Source of the DNA: Defluviitaleaceae bacterium | Lineage (GTDB): Bacteria > Bacillota > Clostridia > Lachnospirales > WRAX01 | Assembly: GCA_009784575.1 (NCBI GenBank) | Contig: WRBK01000002.1 | Span: forward strand, 92,484-156,483 | Reading direction: 5' to 3' | Length of the DNA stretch: 64,000 nt | Shown here: in pieces, positions 2,696 to 63,609 of the stretch | How the letters are laid out: each line of letters opens with the position of its first letter | Position numbering within the stretch: position 1 is the stretch's first letter | The notes under the pieces: model-generated | The model's input: the letters and a program-made list of their open reading frames with translations, nothing else | What the model was told of the DNA's origin: nothing | Database searches by the model: none | Translations under genes and position numbers: made by a program

Positions 2696-4156
2696 CTATA
2701 GGAACAACCATGCAAACAAAACGATTATTGGCAAAGCAATGATAGTTCTCATAACAAATAGGATTGCTAGATGACCAATATTTAGCGGGATTCTGGACTT
2801 TAGTATCAAAATACCAGTTTCTGCTAGGTAAATAATTTGTACTATGGAAAGCGCACCAATGATAAAGCGCGTAGCAAGCGGCGCTTCTGTGCCTAGCAAT
2901 ATGGCAGGTATGAACATGTCTATAAAGCCAACGATGGTAGCAGGAGCATAGTCAAAAGCACCCTCAACACCGAGTATATTCATATACCAACCAAATGGCC
3001 ATGCCAATACATCAAAGATATCTGTAAACTCTACAAGAACGAGAGCAATAGTACCCCAAGCCAATATCACAGGTATCAAATCCATAAAGATATTAAGCCA
3101 GTTAGAAGCACCAGATTTCATAACATCATTAGGGCCTGTTTGACCAGCGCGCCTTGATGCCGACTTCACAGCCCAGCTAAACATAGATGTACCTTTTGGT
3201 ACTTCTTCGTCAATCTGCTTGCCTACATCTGGTAAATATTCATTTTTGATACGGCTAAGAGGCCAAATTCTAGGCATTAATATAGCCAAAAGAATCGTTG
3301 TTACTGTGATAACAAGATAGAACAATGGGAAATGCCCCATAAGACCAACTGTGGATGCTATAACGAATGTGAATGGCAACGAAACCAAAGTAAAGTTTAC
3401 GCAAATAGCGGCGGCCTCACGGTCTGTGTAAAAACCCTTTTCGTGCTGCTGACGTGTAATGATAACAGATGCCGCAGAAGAGCTAAACCAAGAGCCAAGA
3501 AGGTCAATAGAAGAGCGACCAGGCAGCGTAAATAGGAAACGAATAACTTTCCTAATCAGCGTACCCAAAAACTCCATAAGCCCAAAGTCTGTCAAAAGCG
3601 GTATTGTAATACCAAGGATGATGAAGATGGACATGAGGTTAGAGCCGCCAGCGGAGATAAGGTCCATCATCAAATCGCCTGTAAAACTAGCGATAAGCCA
3701 GTCTGGACCCATACCAAGAAACACCATCCACACAATAGCAACGGCAATAGCCTTGCTAACGAAATACAGTGGAGAGCATAAGAAAAGCTTAATTACAGGA
3801 CCTAGCTTCTCAATCCTCGCATTCAATGCGGCGGCTGGCTCTTCTGCTGATGTTGCAAGCAAAATGGAATATGCTATCATCTTAATGATGTAAGCAATAG
3901 CCGACCCTAAAAACGAGATGGTGATAACGCCTGCGGCTACAAAAAACAGTAGCCCAAAACCATTAACATCAAGTGCGTTGATGGTTTCGCCTAGCCAAGC
4001 AATGGCAAAGCCCAAAGGAATGTTGAAAGCCCTATAGCCATCAGCGTTAGTGAATGGTATCGGCACCATAAACAAAAACACGCCGACTAAAGACATAATA
4101 ATGAACTTCAGCTTATGCGCCAGCTTAGGCGTGTAGTCCTTCAGTTCTTGATTCAT
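2696..4156 (-). CDS. YjiH family membrane protein (nucleoside-recognition/Gate domain)
   Basis: Polytopic inner-membrane protein of 486 residues with about ten to twelve hydrophobic helices and the conserved opening seen in YjiH proteins (VPIPFTNADGYRAFNIPLG region, residues 31-50). The family carries Gate (nucleoside-recognition-like) helices and is presumed to transport a small solute, but the substrate is not established. It is two genes upstream of hutU on the same strand; in other Bacillota YjiH-like genes are found near amino-acid catabolism genes, so a histidine or urocanate link is possible but is inference. GGGAGAGG precedes the ATG. A terminator follows at 2633-2659. Confidence 0.8.
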   Translation of the reverse strand: MNQELKDYTPKLAHKLKFIIMSLVGVFLFMVPIPFTNADGYRAFNIPLGFAIAWLGETINALDVNGFGLLFFVAAGVITISFLGSAIAYIIKMIAYSILLATSAEEPAAALNARIEKLGPVIKLFLCSPLYFVSKAIAVAIVWMVFLGMGPDWLIASFTGDLMMDLISAGGSNLMSIFIILGITIPLLTDFGLMEFLGTLIRKVIRFLFTLPGRSSIDLLGSWFSSSAASVIITRQQHEKGFYTDREAAAICVNFTLVSLPFTFVIASTVGLMGHFPLFYLVITVTTILLAILMPRIWPLSRIKNEYLPDVGKQIDEEVPKGTSMFSWAVKSASRRAGQTGPNDVMKSGASNWLNIFMDLIPVILAWGTIALVLVEFTDIFDVLAWPFGWYMNILGVEGAFDYAPATIVGFIDMFIPAILLGTEAPLATRFIIGALSIVQIIYLAETGILILKSRIPLNIGHLAILFVMRTIIALPIIVLFAWLFL

Positions 4157-4209: not shown

Positions 4210-5373
4210 CTACCTGAAGTACCTATCATTAAATGCTTCAAACATCCGCCCAATAGCGGCAAACCTACCAAAGCCAGCCCCAGCATCTTCGCCCATATCA
4301 GATAAAATGATGAGAATATATGGTGACGGCGCATACACAATAGCTAGGTCATGAAAATGCTCATCCATCCAACCATATTTTAGCGCGACATCATAGTTGT
4401 CCGAAAGTATTGTGCCAAAAGCATATATAAGGTCATAGCGCAATTCATGTGCAAATTGCCCATCGCTCTCAAGATAATTAAACACAGCGGTCATCCACAC
4501 AGCGGCATCTTCCACATCAATATTCTTTGCCGTAAGGCTAAGAATACGCGCACGATTTGCTCCGATTTCATCCACAAAATCCCAGAAAGTAAAGTCAGGA
4601 TGATTGTAATTTAGCGCAAGCATACGATAAGCTACATTGCAGCTATAGCGTATGGAATGGTTCAAAAGCTCCTGCGTGGTGAATTGCGTACCAAAAGGCA
4701 TATGCTGTATCAGCCCGCTACCGCCGCGATGATTGACGGCTGTGTAGGTATGTATATCATCCATGGATATGTAGCCGCGTTCCGCAAGGGTGTAAATATA
4801 TATCGCACTATAGATTTTATTGGTGCTTGCCCCAAAAAACACGCGACCAAGGTTATATGTAAAAGTAAAGCCTGTATCCAAATTCATATAAAGCACGGAG
4901 ACTCGGTTACCATGCGCCTGCAATGCAGAGTGCAACGCGGCTGTGGGCGGTTCAAAATCCAAATTAACCCACCGCGCACCAAGATGTGTTTCTATCTGCA
5001 ACCAACGCCCATCTTGCTGCAATACGCGCACGAGCTGTGGCGTGATAAGGTCTACATATGCTGTGTCACCCATATTCTCATGTATCCCAAGCAAACGCGG
5101 TGTACGGCGTAGATTGGCTTCAGCATAAACCCACTCTGCACCGCGGTAGGTAGTTATGGCTATCCAGCCATAGCCGTTATCCTCATGATACCGCACATAT
5201 TGCGGGTTAAAATCACCAATTACATTTGCGGTGAAGCTAGGCTCGTCATATGTAACAAACCGCCACGGTATATGGCGCAGATTGTCTTGCGTATCGCTTT
5301 CAGATGCTGTGACATGCAATGCTCCAAAAACCATAAACGCTGTGAAAACTAAAATTGCCGTTAAATATCTCAA
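4210..5373 (-). CDS. Secreted serine hydrolase (class A beta-lactamase fold) with SH3-like repeats
   Basis: A 387-residue exported protein. Residues 1-24 form a signal peptide; 30-90 and about 91-145 are two SH3-like modules; the rest is a penicillin-recognising hydrolase domain. The active-site SxxK is S183-T-N-K186, the second motif S244-C-N246 fits SxN, and K332-Y-G334 occupies the KTG position, with Tyr in place of Ser/Thr. It could be a beta-lactamase-like or peptidoglycan-editing enzyme; the substrate cannot be read from sequence. Translation starts at TTG 5373 because the preceding ATG runs straight into TGA and GGAG sits 8 bases upstream. The first SH3-like module closely matches the N-terminus of the adjacent CapA-type gene. 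Confidence 0.8.
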   Translation of the reverse strand: MRYLTAILVFTAFMVFGALHVTASESDTQDNLRHIPWRFVTYDEPSFTANVIGDFNPQYVRYHEDNGYGWIAITTYRGAEWVYAEANLRRTPRLLGIHENMGDTAYVDLITPQLVRVLQQDGRWLQIETHLGARWVNLDFEPPTAALHSALQAHGNRVSVLYMNLDTGFTFTYNLGRVFFGASTNKIYSAIYIYTLAERGYISMDDIHTYTAVNHRGGSGLIQHMPFGTQFTTQELLNHSIRYSCNVAYRMLALNYNHPDFTFWDFVDEIGANRARILSLTAKNIDVEDAAVWMTAVFNYLESDGQFAHELRYDLIYAFGTILSDNYDVALKYGWMDEHFHDLAIVYAPSPYILIILSDMGEDAGAGFGRFAAIGRMFEAFNDRYFR

Positions 5374-5400
5374 ATCATTGTCTCCATTTCTTAAATATTG

Positions 5401-6588
5401 TTATTGACCAATCATTTGACTATATGCACGAATACGCTCCAAAATCCGCTCTGCATCAGCACCCTCAGCTATAGTCGGCTGAAAATCATTACGATAGCGT
5501 ACAGATGACACGAAAATCGGGATAATATTTATGTCAACATCTGGTTGCAAAACGCCATCGTGGAATGTAAATGTTTGCTGAAAAATAAAGCTATCTTGGT
5601 CAGGCGGGTTAGAGTTCCCGCCAAAAGAGAAATTGGCAAGCGAATACACGATGTGATGCCCACTATGCTCCTCGATGCCCTGTATAACATGCGGATGCGC
5701 TCCAAGCACCAAATGCGCCCCTTGGTCAATAGTAAAACGCCCAATAGCAACCTGATAAGGCTCAGGCACATTATTTCGCTCCACGCCCCAATGATAATAA
5801 GCAATAATCAACTGTGCGCCGCGCTCTTGTAATTCGGCAATGGCATCAGAGATACGTCCGCGGTTATGAGCGGTATCCTGCCAGATACGATGCCCAAACA
5901 GCCCAACACTTATGCCGTTTACCTCTATAATAGTGATATACTCATTGCCAAAAAACGCTATGCCTTCTGCCGCAAGAGCCGCCGTTGTGTCCCTATACCC
6001 TTGGTCAAAAAAGTCAATTGTGTGGTTGTTTGCAATGGTCACAACATCCACATATGACGATGACAATATTTGTGCAAAATGTGGCGGGCCACGAAAAACA
6101 AATTGCTTATCCATATGCTCTGTTGCATATGTCAAAGTGCCTTCCAAATTTAGGATTGTTAAATCATCCGCTTCAAAAATATGTACAACATTTCGGAGAA
6201 AGTGGCTATGGTCTCGCCCGCTTTGCTCAAATTCACGCATAAAAGCATGATATCCAGCCCATCGCGAATCACCGCCCAAAGTGGTGTCGCCAGCGGCAGA
6301 AATGGTTATTGTCACAATATCTGGCATAGGCTCTGACCTATAATAAAGCCACTGCCTGCCACGATAAGTGTTTATCAAAATCCAACCGTCGCCATTGTTT
6401 TCTGTATAATCAACATTCTGGGAGGAAAACCTACCAACACGCTGGGATTCAAAATCAGGTGACTCATAGGTAACAAAATCCCAAGGAATATGGCGGCTGC
6501 CAGACTGCATATTGCTAGAAGCAATAAGCGAAACGCCGCAAAGCAACATCAGAGTTATTACGGTTAAGGACTGGACGATTTTTCTCAT
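5401..6588 (-). CDS. CapA/PgsA-type protein with N-terminal SH3-like module
   Basis: Secreted protein of 395 residues. A signal peptide (1-25) is followed by an SH3-like module (about 32-88) and a CapA domain with the metallophosphoesterase-like landmarks AAGDTTLGGD (98-107), NLEGT (147-151), ANNHTIDF (186-193) and GAHPHV (296-301). CapA-family proteins are linked to poly-gamma-glutamate capsules, but many are of unknown substrate and no pgs genes are near. The frame stays open to 6657, but that extension runs through the rplT terminator, so the ATG at 6588 with AGAGGTG seven bases upstream is chosen. It precedes the serine hydrolase by 27 bases and the two are probably co-transcribed. Confidence 0.85.
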   Translation of the reverse strand: MRKIVQSLTVITLMLLCGVSLIASSNMQSGSRHIPWDFVTYESPDFESQRVGRFSSQNVDYTENNGDGWILINTYRGRQWLYYRSEPMPDIVTITISAAGDTTLGGDSRWAGYHAFMREFEQSGRDHSHFLRNVVHIFEADDLTILNLEGTLTYATEHMDKQFVFRGPPHFAQILSSSYVDVVTIANNHTIDFFDQGYRDTTAALAAEGIAFFGNEYITIIEVNGISVGLFGHRIWQDTAHNRGRISDAIAELQERGAQLIIAYYHWGVERNNVPEPYQVAIGRFTIDQGAHLVLGAHPHVIQGIEEHSGHHIVYSLANFSFGGNSNPPDQDSFIFQQTFTFHDGVLQPDVDINIIPIFVSSVRYRNDFQPTIAEGADAERILERIRAYSQMIGQ

Positions 6589-6603
6589 AAACACCTCTTT
6601 TTT

Positions 6604-6646
6604 GCAAAAAAGCGAAGTCCTCCGAAAAAATCGGACTAACTTCGCT
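6604..6646 (-). terminator. Terminator of the infC-rpmI-rplT operon
   Basis: On the minus strand a stem AGCGAAGTTAGTCCGA paired with TCGGAGGACTTCGCT (6611-6646) is followed by a run of six T (6605-6610). It directly follows rplT. Confidence 0.85.
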
Positions 6647-6663
6647 AAATAATACATTGTTTA

Positions 6664-26896: not shown

Positions 26897-27679
26897 TCAT
26901 CTTTGATTCCAATACGATATAGCCAGTTCTTCCCATTCTTCCGCATATTCATTTGATGATACGAAGTTGTACAAAAATCTTCGCCATTCCTCAATCATGC
27001 CATGTATATCCTGTCCATAAACATTTATGAAGTTATCGACGTCCCAAAGAACTTTCATAAAATTGTCCATTCCGTAGGTTTCTACAAGATATATGACAAA
27101 AGATGTTGCCGTTGCATATGTGTTTATAGCGGCTATGTGGTCGGGTGCAGATACGCTTGTATAAAATGTTCCAAAACCAACATGAATTGCCCTATAATCA
27201 TGATTGGTTAGGCGATAATGAGCGGCAAAATGCCACAAGTAATCGTAATAGAACGAATACGCATGCCTTATAAAGCCTTCACCATAAATCTCATCATGAT
27301 ATGGCAAGCTATGGTCAAAATCTTCGGATTTATTGAATGTATCATTTATAAAGTCTGCAAAGCCTTCCTCTAGAGGTCTTATGGGGCGAGGTTCACCAAT
27401 TTGATGCATTACTGCGTGAACTACCTCATGACCAGCTACCATAACGCTAAGTAGGTTAAATAGCACCACCCTGTCAATAGCCATAAGTCCGCCGCCGCCG
27501 CCAAATACCAAATTACCTTCTCCATACCAAATCTGAAATGTTATATTTCTGGATTCAAATTCTCTAAACTGTGCAATAAAATCAATTGTAAAGTTTGTAG
27601 CATCATAAATGTAAGCTATGTACGCTCTTGCATCCTCCATTGAAATGCCATCTTGTAAATCACCAAACAGAAACTGCAC
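26897..27679 (-). CDS. HEXXH metallopeptidase-like domain protein, probably the C-terminal half of a split gene
   Basis: 260 residues with a zinc-peptidase motif HEVVH near residues 85-89 and a downstream acidic ligand candidate in LEEGFADF about 18 residues later, the gluzincin (peptidase MA-like) arrangement. No signal peptide is visible, and the only start (GTG 27679) has no ribosome site. The upstream lipoprotein ends six bases before in another frame, and this frame continues open upstream (CDVASVQFLFGD). A single-base change would fuse them into one lipid-anchored peptidase of about 530 residues, which I think more likely than two genes. Confidence 0.65.
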   Translation of the reverse strand: MQFLFGDLQDGISMEDARAYIAYIYDATNFTIDFIAQFREFESRNITFQIWYGEGNLVFGGGGGLMAIDRVVLFNLLSVMVAGHEVVHAVMHQIGEPRPIRPLEEGFADFINDTFNKSEDFDHSLPYHDEIYGEGFIRHAYSFYYDYLWHFAAHYRLTNHDYRAIHVGFGTFYTSVSAPDHIAAINTYATATSFVIYLVETYGMDNFMKVLWDVDNFINVYGQDIHGMIEEWRRFLYNFVSSNEYAEEWEELAISYWNQR

Positions 27680-60690: not shown

Positions 60691-63609
60691 TTATTTGTCA
60701 CGCTTAATTTCTTCCATCACGAAAGCTTCCACTACGTCGCCTTCTTTGATGTCACTAAACTTTGTCAACACCAAGCCGCACTCATAGTTTGTCAACACTT
60801 CGCGCACATCTTCTTTAAAACGGCGCAATGTATCCAGCGTACCCTCATACACAACGATATTGTCACGCAATACACGCACAGAAGAATTTCTTGTGATTTT
60901 GCCGTCATTTACATATGCGCCGCCAATAGTGCCTATGCCGCTTGCCTTAAAGATTTGGCGGATAGTAGCGTGACCAATGATTTTTTCTTCAAAAATTGGG
61001 TCAAGCATACCAACCATAGCAGCCTGAATGTCATCAATAGCATTATAAATAATGCGATACAAACGAATATCAACCTGTTGGTCTTCCGCGACAGCCTTGG
61101 CTGATGGCTCAGGGCGTACATTAAAGCCAATGATAATGGCGTTTGAAGCTGAAGCGAGCATTACGTCGCTTTCCGTGACGGCACCCACGCCGCCCAAAAT
61201 AGTGCGTATACGAACTTCGTCATTAGAAAGCTTTTCTAAAGATGCCTTAACGGCCTCCACAGAGCCGCCCACATCAGCTTTGATGATAATATTAAGCTCT
61301 TTAACCTTGCCTGCCTGTATTTGCGAGAAGAGGTCGTCAAGAGAGACCTTTTGCGGCGTTTCATCTATCAACTTCACGCGATTTTTAGCTATTATAGTTT
61401 CTGCCACATAGCGTGCCTCATTAGCATTTTGTGCGATATTAAACAAATCGCCTGCGGCAGGTACAGAATGTAGCCCCAAAATTTCAACAGGAATAGATGG
61501 AGCTGCCTCTTGTACTTTCTGCCCCTTATCGTTTATCATTGCACGTATACGGCCATGTGCCGTACCAGCCACGATATGGTCACCAATATGCAATGTGCCT
61601 GATTTTACAAGTACAGTAGCAACAGGTCCACGACCTTTGTCAAGCTGAGCTTCAATAATCGTGCCGCGCGCCTTCTTATTAGGGTTGGCTTTAAACTCCT
61701 TCATATCTGCAATTAATAGTATCATTTCAAGCAGATTGTCCAAACCCTCTTTTGTATGAGCAGAAACGCGAGCGCAAATAATGTCACCGCCATATGCCTC
61801 GGCAATAAGCCCATGCTCTGTCAATTCTTGTAAGACACGGTCAGGGTTTGCAGATGGCTTGTCGATTTTGTTTATAGCAACAATAATTTCAACGCCTGCT
61901 GCTTTAGCATGGCTGATAGCCTCAATTGTTTGCGGCATGACACCATCATCCGCAGCCACAACAAGCACAGCAATATCCGTTACCTGTGCGCCGCGCATAC
62001 GCATAGCTGTAAACGCTTCATGACCAGGTGTATCAAGGAAGGTGATAGGGCGGTCTCTAATACTAACGGTATAAGCACCAATATGTTGTGTTATGCCGCC
62101 AGCCTCGCCCACAACAACATCCGTGTGACGAATAGCATCCAAAAGAGAAGTTTTGCCGTGGTCAACGTGACCCATAACCACAACAACAGGCGGACGATTA
62201 ATTAGAACATCATCGCCTTCTTCATCCTCGCTAAACACTTCTTCCAATATGTCAATCTCTATCTTTTCCTCAACCAAGATATTGTATTCCATAGCTATCT
62301 CCATAGCCTTTTCATAAGAAATCTCTTGGTTTATGCTTATCATCTCACCTTTTTTGATGAGGGACTTAACAAGTTCCGCACCTTGCTTATTCATCATTTC
62401 AGCTAGCTCTTTTAGTGTTAATGTAGCTGGTACGTATATTACACGTGGCTCTTCGGGCTTTGCAACAACTTTTTGTACATTTTGACGAGCCAGCATTTTT
62501 TCTTTGCTATCATCTACCAAGCGGTCTTTGCGTCTATCTTTGCCTCTGGAGGTTTCTAGCTTTTGCCTGCGACCATGCTTGTCAGGTGCTTGCTGTTTTT
62601 GGTCTGGTTTACCACTTCTGCCAAACGCACCCGCTGTGCCTCCGCTGCCAAAGTTTCCACCACCACTGCCGCCACGAAATGGGGCTTTGTCATTACCGCG
62701 GAATTGCTGTCTATCGCCTCCGCCGCCATGTTGCGGACGACCACCACCAGGTCTACTTTGTCCCTGACCATAGCCGCCACCTTGTCCTTGCGGACGACCG
62801 CCGCTAGGCGCGCCTTGCCCGCTAGGTCTTGGTCTGCCATCGCCCCTGTTGTTATATGGTGGTCTATCTCCCCTGTTGTCGCCCCTTGGAGCTGACCTGC
62901 CATCAGCATTGGGTCTTGAAGGTCTATCGGGCCTGCTTGCTCCGCCTTCGCGTGGCGGTCTATCGCCTCTAGGTCTATCTGGTCGTGGAATAGGTTTGCC
63001 ATCCGCATCAAGTCTCGGCGGTCGTGGAATAGGCTTGCCATCAGATCCAAGCGGACGTTCTCTGCGAGGGATAGGCTTACCATCTGCATCATATCTCACA
63101 GGTCTAGGCAATGGCTTTCCGTCAGGCCCAAGAGGTCTTTCTCTGCGTGGCAATGGATTTCCGTCAGCATCATATCTCACAGGTCGAGGAATAGGCTTGC
63201 CGTCAGCATCAAGCCTTACAGGTCTTGGCAAAGGCTTTCCATCAGGTCCAAGCGGACGCTTTTTGCGCGGAATAGGATTTCCGTCAGCATCATATCTCAC
63301 AGGTCTAGGCAATGGCTTTCCATCAGGCCCAAGAGGTCTTTCTCTGCGTGGCAATGGATTTCCGTCAGCATCAAGTCTAACGGGTCTTTCTGGTCTTGCA
63401 TCTGGCTTTGCTTTATCTTCTTGCTTCATTGCTTGCGCTTCTATTGTTTTGCCTGTACCAAAATGCTTGCGTACTTTTTCGGCATCGTTCGCATCAAGTG
63501 CTGCAAAATGTGTTTTGGCTTCTATACCAATTTCTGGAAGAAATTTTATGATTTCTGAGGAAACAATCCCCAACTCTTTTGCCCATTCATGTATCCTTTT
63601 TTTGGACAT
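60691..63609 (-). CDS. infB: Translation initiation factor IF-2 with long repeat insert
   Basis: 972 residues. N-terminal IF2N module (1-50), a low-complexity insert (about 70-390), a second IF2N-like module (about 395-450), the G domain with GHVDHGKT (near 479), DTPGHEAF and NKIDKPSAN, then domains II-IV; the C-terminal domain binds fMet-tRNA. The insert first holds about ten tandem 13-14-residue units of the form R-x-R-x-D/G-x-DG-x-P-x-PR (about 76-212), then a Gly/Arg/Gln-rich RGG-like stretch. Clostridial IF-2 proteins often have RGG-like inserts, but the DADG/LGPDG repeat is striking. The corresponding DNA is tandemly repetitive (about 62970-63380). Confidence 0.97.
62970..63385. repeat. 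Coding tandem repeats in infB
   Basis: DNA units of about 39-42 bases alternate between a DADG type (CCGTCAGCATCATATCTCAC) and a LGPDG type (CCATCAGGTCCAAGCGGACG), nearly identical at base level, about ten units in all. High identity suggests recent expansion or homogenisation. Confidence 0.8.

Follow-up and report, generated by a model that had tools for sequence, protein, structure and literature searches.

Two adjacent genes for secreted enzymes, whose catalytic parts belong to different Pfam families, start with what looks like the same short module, and the question is where that module came from and what it does for both. The pair lies in a window of 64,000 nucleotides (the whole stretch analysed, from contig WRBK01000002.1 of a Defluviitaleaceae bacterium), in which the minus strand reads infC, rplT (both named by eye from the sequence), a CapA-type gene and a serine hydrolase gene (Table 1). 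The CapA-type protein matches PGA_cap with 158.8 bits (Pfam cut-off 27) and the hydrolase matches Beta-lactamase2 (PF13354) with 80.9 bits (cut-off 22). The CapA-type gene was taken to begin at the ATG at 6588; a longer open reading frame, to 6657, runs through the terminator region. The hydrolase begins with TTG, and a genome of the same genus (G001) has a TTG at the same place in a similar context. The account that we consider probable is that the module is a lineage-restricted, SH3b-like wall tag that was copied from the hydrolase to the neighbouring CapA gene in the ancestor of the genus.

A common module in two neighbouring genes

The first-pass annotation had proposed that one N-terminal block of about 55 residues opens both proteins, and alignment bears this out. 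The two modules, of about 56 residues, score 172 against each other, compared with a mean of 25 for shuffled sequences (sd 5.3, maximum 62), and as none of 2000 shuffles scored as high, chance similarity was rejected. BLASTP of one whole protein against the other returned a single significant alignment, that of the N-termini (37 of 83 positions identical, E 2e-20). The signal peptides that precede the modules score 21 against 14.7 for shuffled sequences, a value that 79 of 2000 shuffles reach; they are not convincingly alike, so sharing is demonstrated for the module only, and the idea that signal peptide and module are homologous as one block was rejected. The module carries the signature IPWxF...P.F...PQ.V...GW..I.T..G..W. 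Third codon positions of the two copies are 38% identical, so that the copying, if real, would be old and no DNA trace of it is left.

Close examination of the hydrolase revealed a second SH3-like unit, at about residues 88–143, which had been overlooked in the first-pass annotation. It aligns with the first module of the same protein at a score of 57 (21 for shuffled sequences, 0 of 2000 shuffles as high) and with the CapA module at 39 (21 shuffled, 8 of 2000).

Judging from the layout of the locus, the two genes are probably co-transcribed. The hydrolase start lies 27 bases after the CapA-type stop. Upstream, between rplT and the CapA-type gene, 71 bases fold into a hairpin of −22.2 kcal/mol (z −5.1), and hairpins occupy the same place in two genomes of the same genus (G001 and G002). 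The CapA-type gene starts some 20 bases after the hairpin, which leaves little room for a promoter (window 6589–6663). Sigma-70 and terminator scans performed near chance, and the rplT hairpin was missed by the scan though seen by folding.

Table 1. Features of the two-gene locus, in window coordinates
Feature	Position	Strand	Description	Basis
CapA-type secreted protein	5401..6588	(-)	395 aa; signal-like hydrophobic N-terminus, one SH3-like module, PGA_cap	
SH3-like module, CapA-type protein	6334..6501	(-)	residues 30-85	alignment, BLASTP
PGA_cap domain PF09587	5623..6306	(-)	residues 95-322, shortly after module	Pfam
Serine hydrolase	4210..5373	(-)	387 aa; signal-like hydrophobic N-terminal helix, two SH3-like modules, Beta-lactamase2	
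Hydrolase SH3-like module 1	5113..5283	(-)	residues 31-87	BLASTP, alignment, model
Hydrolase SH3-like module 2	4945..5112	(-)	residues 88-143, diverged copy	alignment, model
Beta-lactamase2 catalytic domain PF13354	4303..4899	(-)	residues 159-357	Pfam, structure match
SxxK motif, STNK	4816..4827	(-)	residues 183-186	hydrolase family alignment
SxN motif, SCN	4636..4644	(-)	residues 244-246	hydrolase family alignment
KYG at KTG position	4372..4380	(-)	residues 332-334	hydrolase family alignment
Terminator-like hairpin between rplT and CapA-type gene	6611..6646	(-)		folding

Fold, reach and carriers of the module

The module pair of the hydrolase, modelled with 13 relatives, folds with high confidence (pLDDT 93.3) into two units of five main strands each, that is, two SH3-like barrels, in agreement with the label that the first-pass annotation had given; the model covers the hydrolase pair, and the CapA module is known from sequence alone. 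In a structure search with VIA-align, whose rows cover mainly module 1 and whose Z of 7–8 is moderate by the tool's own caution, the best match was a bacterial SH3-like domain (9ovi, Z 8.4, 2.2 Å over 60 residues). The top rows after it are mostly SH3 domains of wall-acting enzymes (peptidases, lysostaphin and endolysins), and the lysostaphin SH3b with a peptidoglycan fragment (5leo) matches with Z 7.1 and 2.4 Å over 60 residues. Foldseek, given the pair, found one match with E under 0.001, endolysin 4krt (TM 0.36), and the module profile searched against PDB sequences gave weak matches only, the best being a eukaryotic SH3 domain (E 0.0085).

The module is a member of the broad bacterial SH3 group. 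Like Pfam SH3_3 (PF08239), SH3_4, SH3_6 and the SH3b of lysostaphin, to which it is related by weak sequence matches and by structural ones, it is an SH3-like barrel (predicted here) joined to wall enzymes. The SH3b of lysostaphin has a groove between β1 and β2 in which the pentaglycine bridge is bound (PMC6461655). Unlike the Pfam SH3 families, the module has a signature of its own, and in the samples searched it is carried by few genomes beyond a part of one order. The copies in the window fall below the Pfam threshold: against SH3_3 (cut-off 27 bits) the hydrolase reaches 13.8 bits and the CapA-type protein is unlisted at E 10. SH3_3 matches 7 of 17 modules weakly (best E 2.9e-5), and the module of one relative, from locus L144, passes it at 39 bits.

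Searched as the sole query, the hydrolase module matched 11 of 58 relatives, the window's own genome included. A profile of 17 modules matched 35 of the 392 genomes sampled from the order; eight of these match at E 1e-4 to 1e-3 and no better, and in five of the eight (G203, G212, G232, G343 and G366) the hits are, by eye, ordinary SH3-type or other proteins. Among 398 genomes sampled from the phylum the same profile matched three: that of the window itself, and two others at weak E values (3.3e-4 and 4.6e-4). The first-pass annotation had envisaged that the module might be a universal form of SH3_3; its scarcity in the phylum sample, together with the weak and partial SH3_3 matches and the sub-threshold scores of both window modules, led us to reject this. 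Our literature search, whose coverage excluded most subscription journals, found nothing on PF09587 and PF13354 together, PGA_cap with SH3, SH3 with Beta-lactamase2, or SH3 with amidase in Lachnospirales.

After removal of overlapping copies, 51 open reading frames match the module (the window's two proteins and a few frames cut by locus ends included): 36 are Beta-lactamase2-like, four PGA_cap, two Amidase_3, one Cthe_2159 and eight none of these. Among the last eight, one is a Peptidase_C39_2 protein by Pfam (L070), two (L074 and L067) look related to it by eye, and the remaining five are the weak matches in the five genomes named above. L028 has a Peptidase_S11 domain ahead of the module, and SLH domains accompany it in one protein of L144. 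A separate observation concerns G136, where the gene for a module-headed C39-type peptidase looks frameshifted, with module and peptidase in different frames (L103 2485–3332).

The named relatives of the hydrolase come from 42 loci, 33 of them titled Defluviitaleaceae. PMC7024585 reports 67 Defluviitaleaceae MAGs from higher termites, and taken with the isolate names this suggests termite or similar guts as the habitat.

Origin of the module in the CapA-type protein

To place the two copies we turned to a tree of 41 modules over 56 columns, a number that the program warns is small. Hits covering at most 46 profile positions, which included most second modules and an eroded module of G002, were left out, as were duplicate fragments of the window and G001 proteins. 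In one clade of five rows (92/95, not starred), the three CapA modules (window, G001, G002) join module 1 of the adjacent hydrolases of the window and G001. The window's genome has one other module-bearing hydrolase, encoded on contig C30, and its copy falls outside this clade. The possibility, raised in the first-pass annotation, that the two modules are no closer to each other than to others therefore runs against the tree, which supports, if not firmly, their being each other's closest kin. Within the clade the CapA modules group together (93/71, not starred), as do the hydrolase modules (99/94, starred). Recent gene conversion was rejected, as the modules group by gene and not by genome and the third codon positions have diverged to the extent given above.

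The other side of the comparison is the CapA core. Matches were found in 75 of the 392 genomes; over half of these 75 lie outside the core tree, which was built from 30 cores, the best matches plus their kin. Four of the 30 have a module and 26 do not; most PGA_cap (CapA/PgsA-like) relatives differ from the CapA-type protein in having a variable, low-complexity linker where its module sits. The starred branches require a minimum of two changes: the first lies in this genus, the other in G157, where the CapA protein has a tandem module pair and falls elsewhere in both trees, by core and by module. That two distant CapA lineages carry a module could be taken to mean that the module is ancestral to CapA and was later lost many times. 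We find this very improbable: the great majority of the cores compared have no module, and the modules of the two lineages come from different parts of the module tree.

Gene order was compared as well. The arrangement infC-rplT-CapA-hydrolase recurs in G001 and G002 and is thus present in all three genomes of the genus; it was seen in none of nine other loci (eight with CapA, three of these from the same family, and one with a hydrolase), though two of these are whole short contigs, for which absence counts for little.

The best supported reading of these sequence comparisons is that the module was copied from hydrolase to CapA in the ancestor of the genus. The course of events would be as follows. 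A divergent bacterial SH3 domain, SH3b-like, would keep secreted enzymes at the wall; in the genomes sampled it is usually carried by Beta-lactamase2-type hydrolases, in one copy or two. In the genus ancestor, the first SH3 module of the hydrolase would have been copied onto the adjacent CapA-type gene, landing where CapA relatives have their variable linker. The pair now sits behind infC-rplT, and both enzymes would end up at the same sites on the wall. The direction of copying is what we infer from the carriers: because the module is frequent in hydrolases, the reverse direction within the pair is less likely.

It is also conceivable that the two genes took their modules separately, drawing on distinct SH3 sources within the lineage, and that their adjacency is coincidental. 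The module is mobile across enzyme classes, the G157 CapA appears to have gained its tandem pair independently, and the fork that joins the window's modules, 92/95 and not starred, rests on 56 columns; moreover, the raw identity of the two (52%) is hardly above that between the window's hydrolase module and a module of G027 (50%). Against this, the CapA modules and those of the adjacent hydrolases form one group apart from the 36 others, and the adjacency holds in three of three genomes of the genus. We consider separate recruitment unlikely. The domain duplication proposed in the first-pass annotation accordingly gains support from the module tree and from the 26 cores that lack the module; in view of the two nearly equal identities, it is unproven.

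Outside the genus, the CapA proteins of highest identity belong to another family, f5 (G232, G244 and G208, 71–76%), and those of the window's own family are less alike (G006 and G004, 64–65%; G008, 47%), so that the CapA gene may have been transferred.

Two further loci show modules in an altered state. In G002 the paired hydrolase (L099 6746–7861) has mostly lost module 1 and has an acidic stretch instead, and the CapA-type copy is kept. In G157, the same frame just upstream of the module-bearing CapA (L102 206–334) appears to contain the tail of one SH3 module followed by the beginning of a second, perhaps the remnant of a recombination that built the fusion.

Catalytic domains and the role of the module

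The first-pass annotation had also noted a Tyr at the KTG position of the hydrolase, and the protein does read KYG there. Among the hydrolases aligned, 53 of 54 could be scored at this position (the other was uncovered), with KYG in 33, KTG in 13 and KSG in seven; since 33 of the 53 scored have the Tyr, we rejected it as a special feature. All 54 retain SxxK and SxN (SDN in 45, SCN in nine), and in the omega segment, which is shortened, no conserved Glu was seen by eye among the 54. The comparison with class A β-lactamases that the annotation had called for gave the same picture: SxxK, SxN and KxG are kept, and in a profile alignment the omega-loop Glu of 6wgr, the counterpart of the catalytic Glu166 of these enzymes, stands opposite a gap. 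The missing glutamate is read solely from alignments.

A model of the full hydrolase (pLDDT 88) is closest to the class A-like structures 4hes and 3cjm (Z 26.6 with each), and PBP-A, a class A-fold DD-peptidase of Thermosynechococcus elongatus, is a nearly equal match (Z 25.4). The fold and the three motifs could be read as those of a true class A β-lactamase, which would tie the pair to drug resistance. The hydrolase comes nowhere near the cut-off of any of the eight NCBIfam families listed, however (34.1 against 200 bits for bla_class_A), and its omega segment has no conserved glutamate; on these two grounds a β-lactamase function was rejected, and the near-equal match to a DD-peptidase also speaks against it, so that we give this reading scarcely any credence. 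Because the deacylation glutamate of class A enzymes has no counterpart in it, the hydrolase is more likely to be a DD-peptidase of the PBP-A type. According to PMC11189452, PBP-A shares with it the SxxK- and SxN-type residues and the lack of an omega-loop catalytic glutamate. The two differ in that their structure-aligned identity is 15%, and the SH3 modules in front and the KYG are features of the hydrolase. The Beta-lactamase2 structure 3cjm is both the joint best structure match and the best PDB sequence match, but it aligns with the catalytic domain only and has K-I-G where the hydrolase has K-Y-G.

In the CapA-type protein, N188, H189, D192 and H300 correspond to Asn87, His88, Asp91 and His295 of the epimerase MslH, the first three in a stretch of alignment that is not significant alone. 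PMC10406935 describes these MslH residues as metal ligand and catalytic dyad members. The proteins differ in that the CapA-type protein scores 33 bits against a cut-off of 700 for the MslH model.

What, then, might the module do? Most of its partner families are known for wall enzymes, and SH3-like folds serve non-wall roles too. The shared wall ligand or localisation cue suggested in the first-pass annotation is plausible by analogy, from the SH3b-like fold and the partner families; the module would bind the wall, and both copies may recognize the same ligand. On a different reading, the module has a structural or regulatory role in place of a wall-tag one, as a spacer, a dimerisation domain or an inhibitory domain. 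It precedes very different catalytic domains, its copy number ranges from none to three per protein, and within the genus it changes faster than the CapA core (identity at most 70% against 83–85%), all of which would suit such a part, as would the many roles of SH3-like folds. On the other hand, its partners come mostly from wall-enzyme families, one carrier also has SLH domains, and most of the best structural matches are SH3 domains from enzymes that act on the wall; we therefore regard a structural or regulatory role as somewhat unlikely, though deserving of some weight.

Under the wall-tag account, an SH3b variant local to this lineage has moved between wall enzymes, which is evolution of a known and fairly ordinary kind. 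A bolder version would have a private wall-address system in these gut Clostridia, with an exchangeable SH3b tag shared by unrelated wall enzymes, a co-expressed pair tagged by copying for one wall site, and a CapA-type metalloenzyme that acts on wall peptides and not on capsule; we think this quite doubtful. PGA_cap proteins occur widely, in 7 of 14 control genomes, and most have, to our knowledge, no assigned function. If one of them has received its targeting domain from an adjacent hydrolase of the peptidoglycan type, that would point to a wall role for this one at least, a role that the module makes testable. As the Pfam SH3 models cover the module poorly, a new SH3b model built on it could also be useful for these gut Clostridia.

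Elsewhere in the window, the membrane protein encoded downstream of the pair (2696–4156) has no Pfam match at E 0.001, and the open reading frame at 26897–27679 matches Peptidase_MA_2 below the cut-off (22.4 against 32.4 bits). On the minus strand, a frame at 60691–63609, IF-2-like by eye, contains an N-terminal array of units of the D-G-K-P-L-P-R-P type (62981–63388), with tandem repeat periods of 39, 81, 120 and 201 bases.
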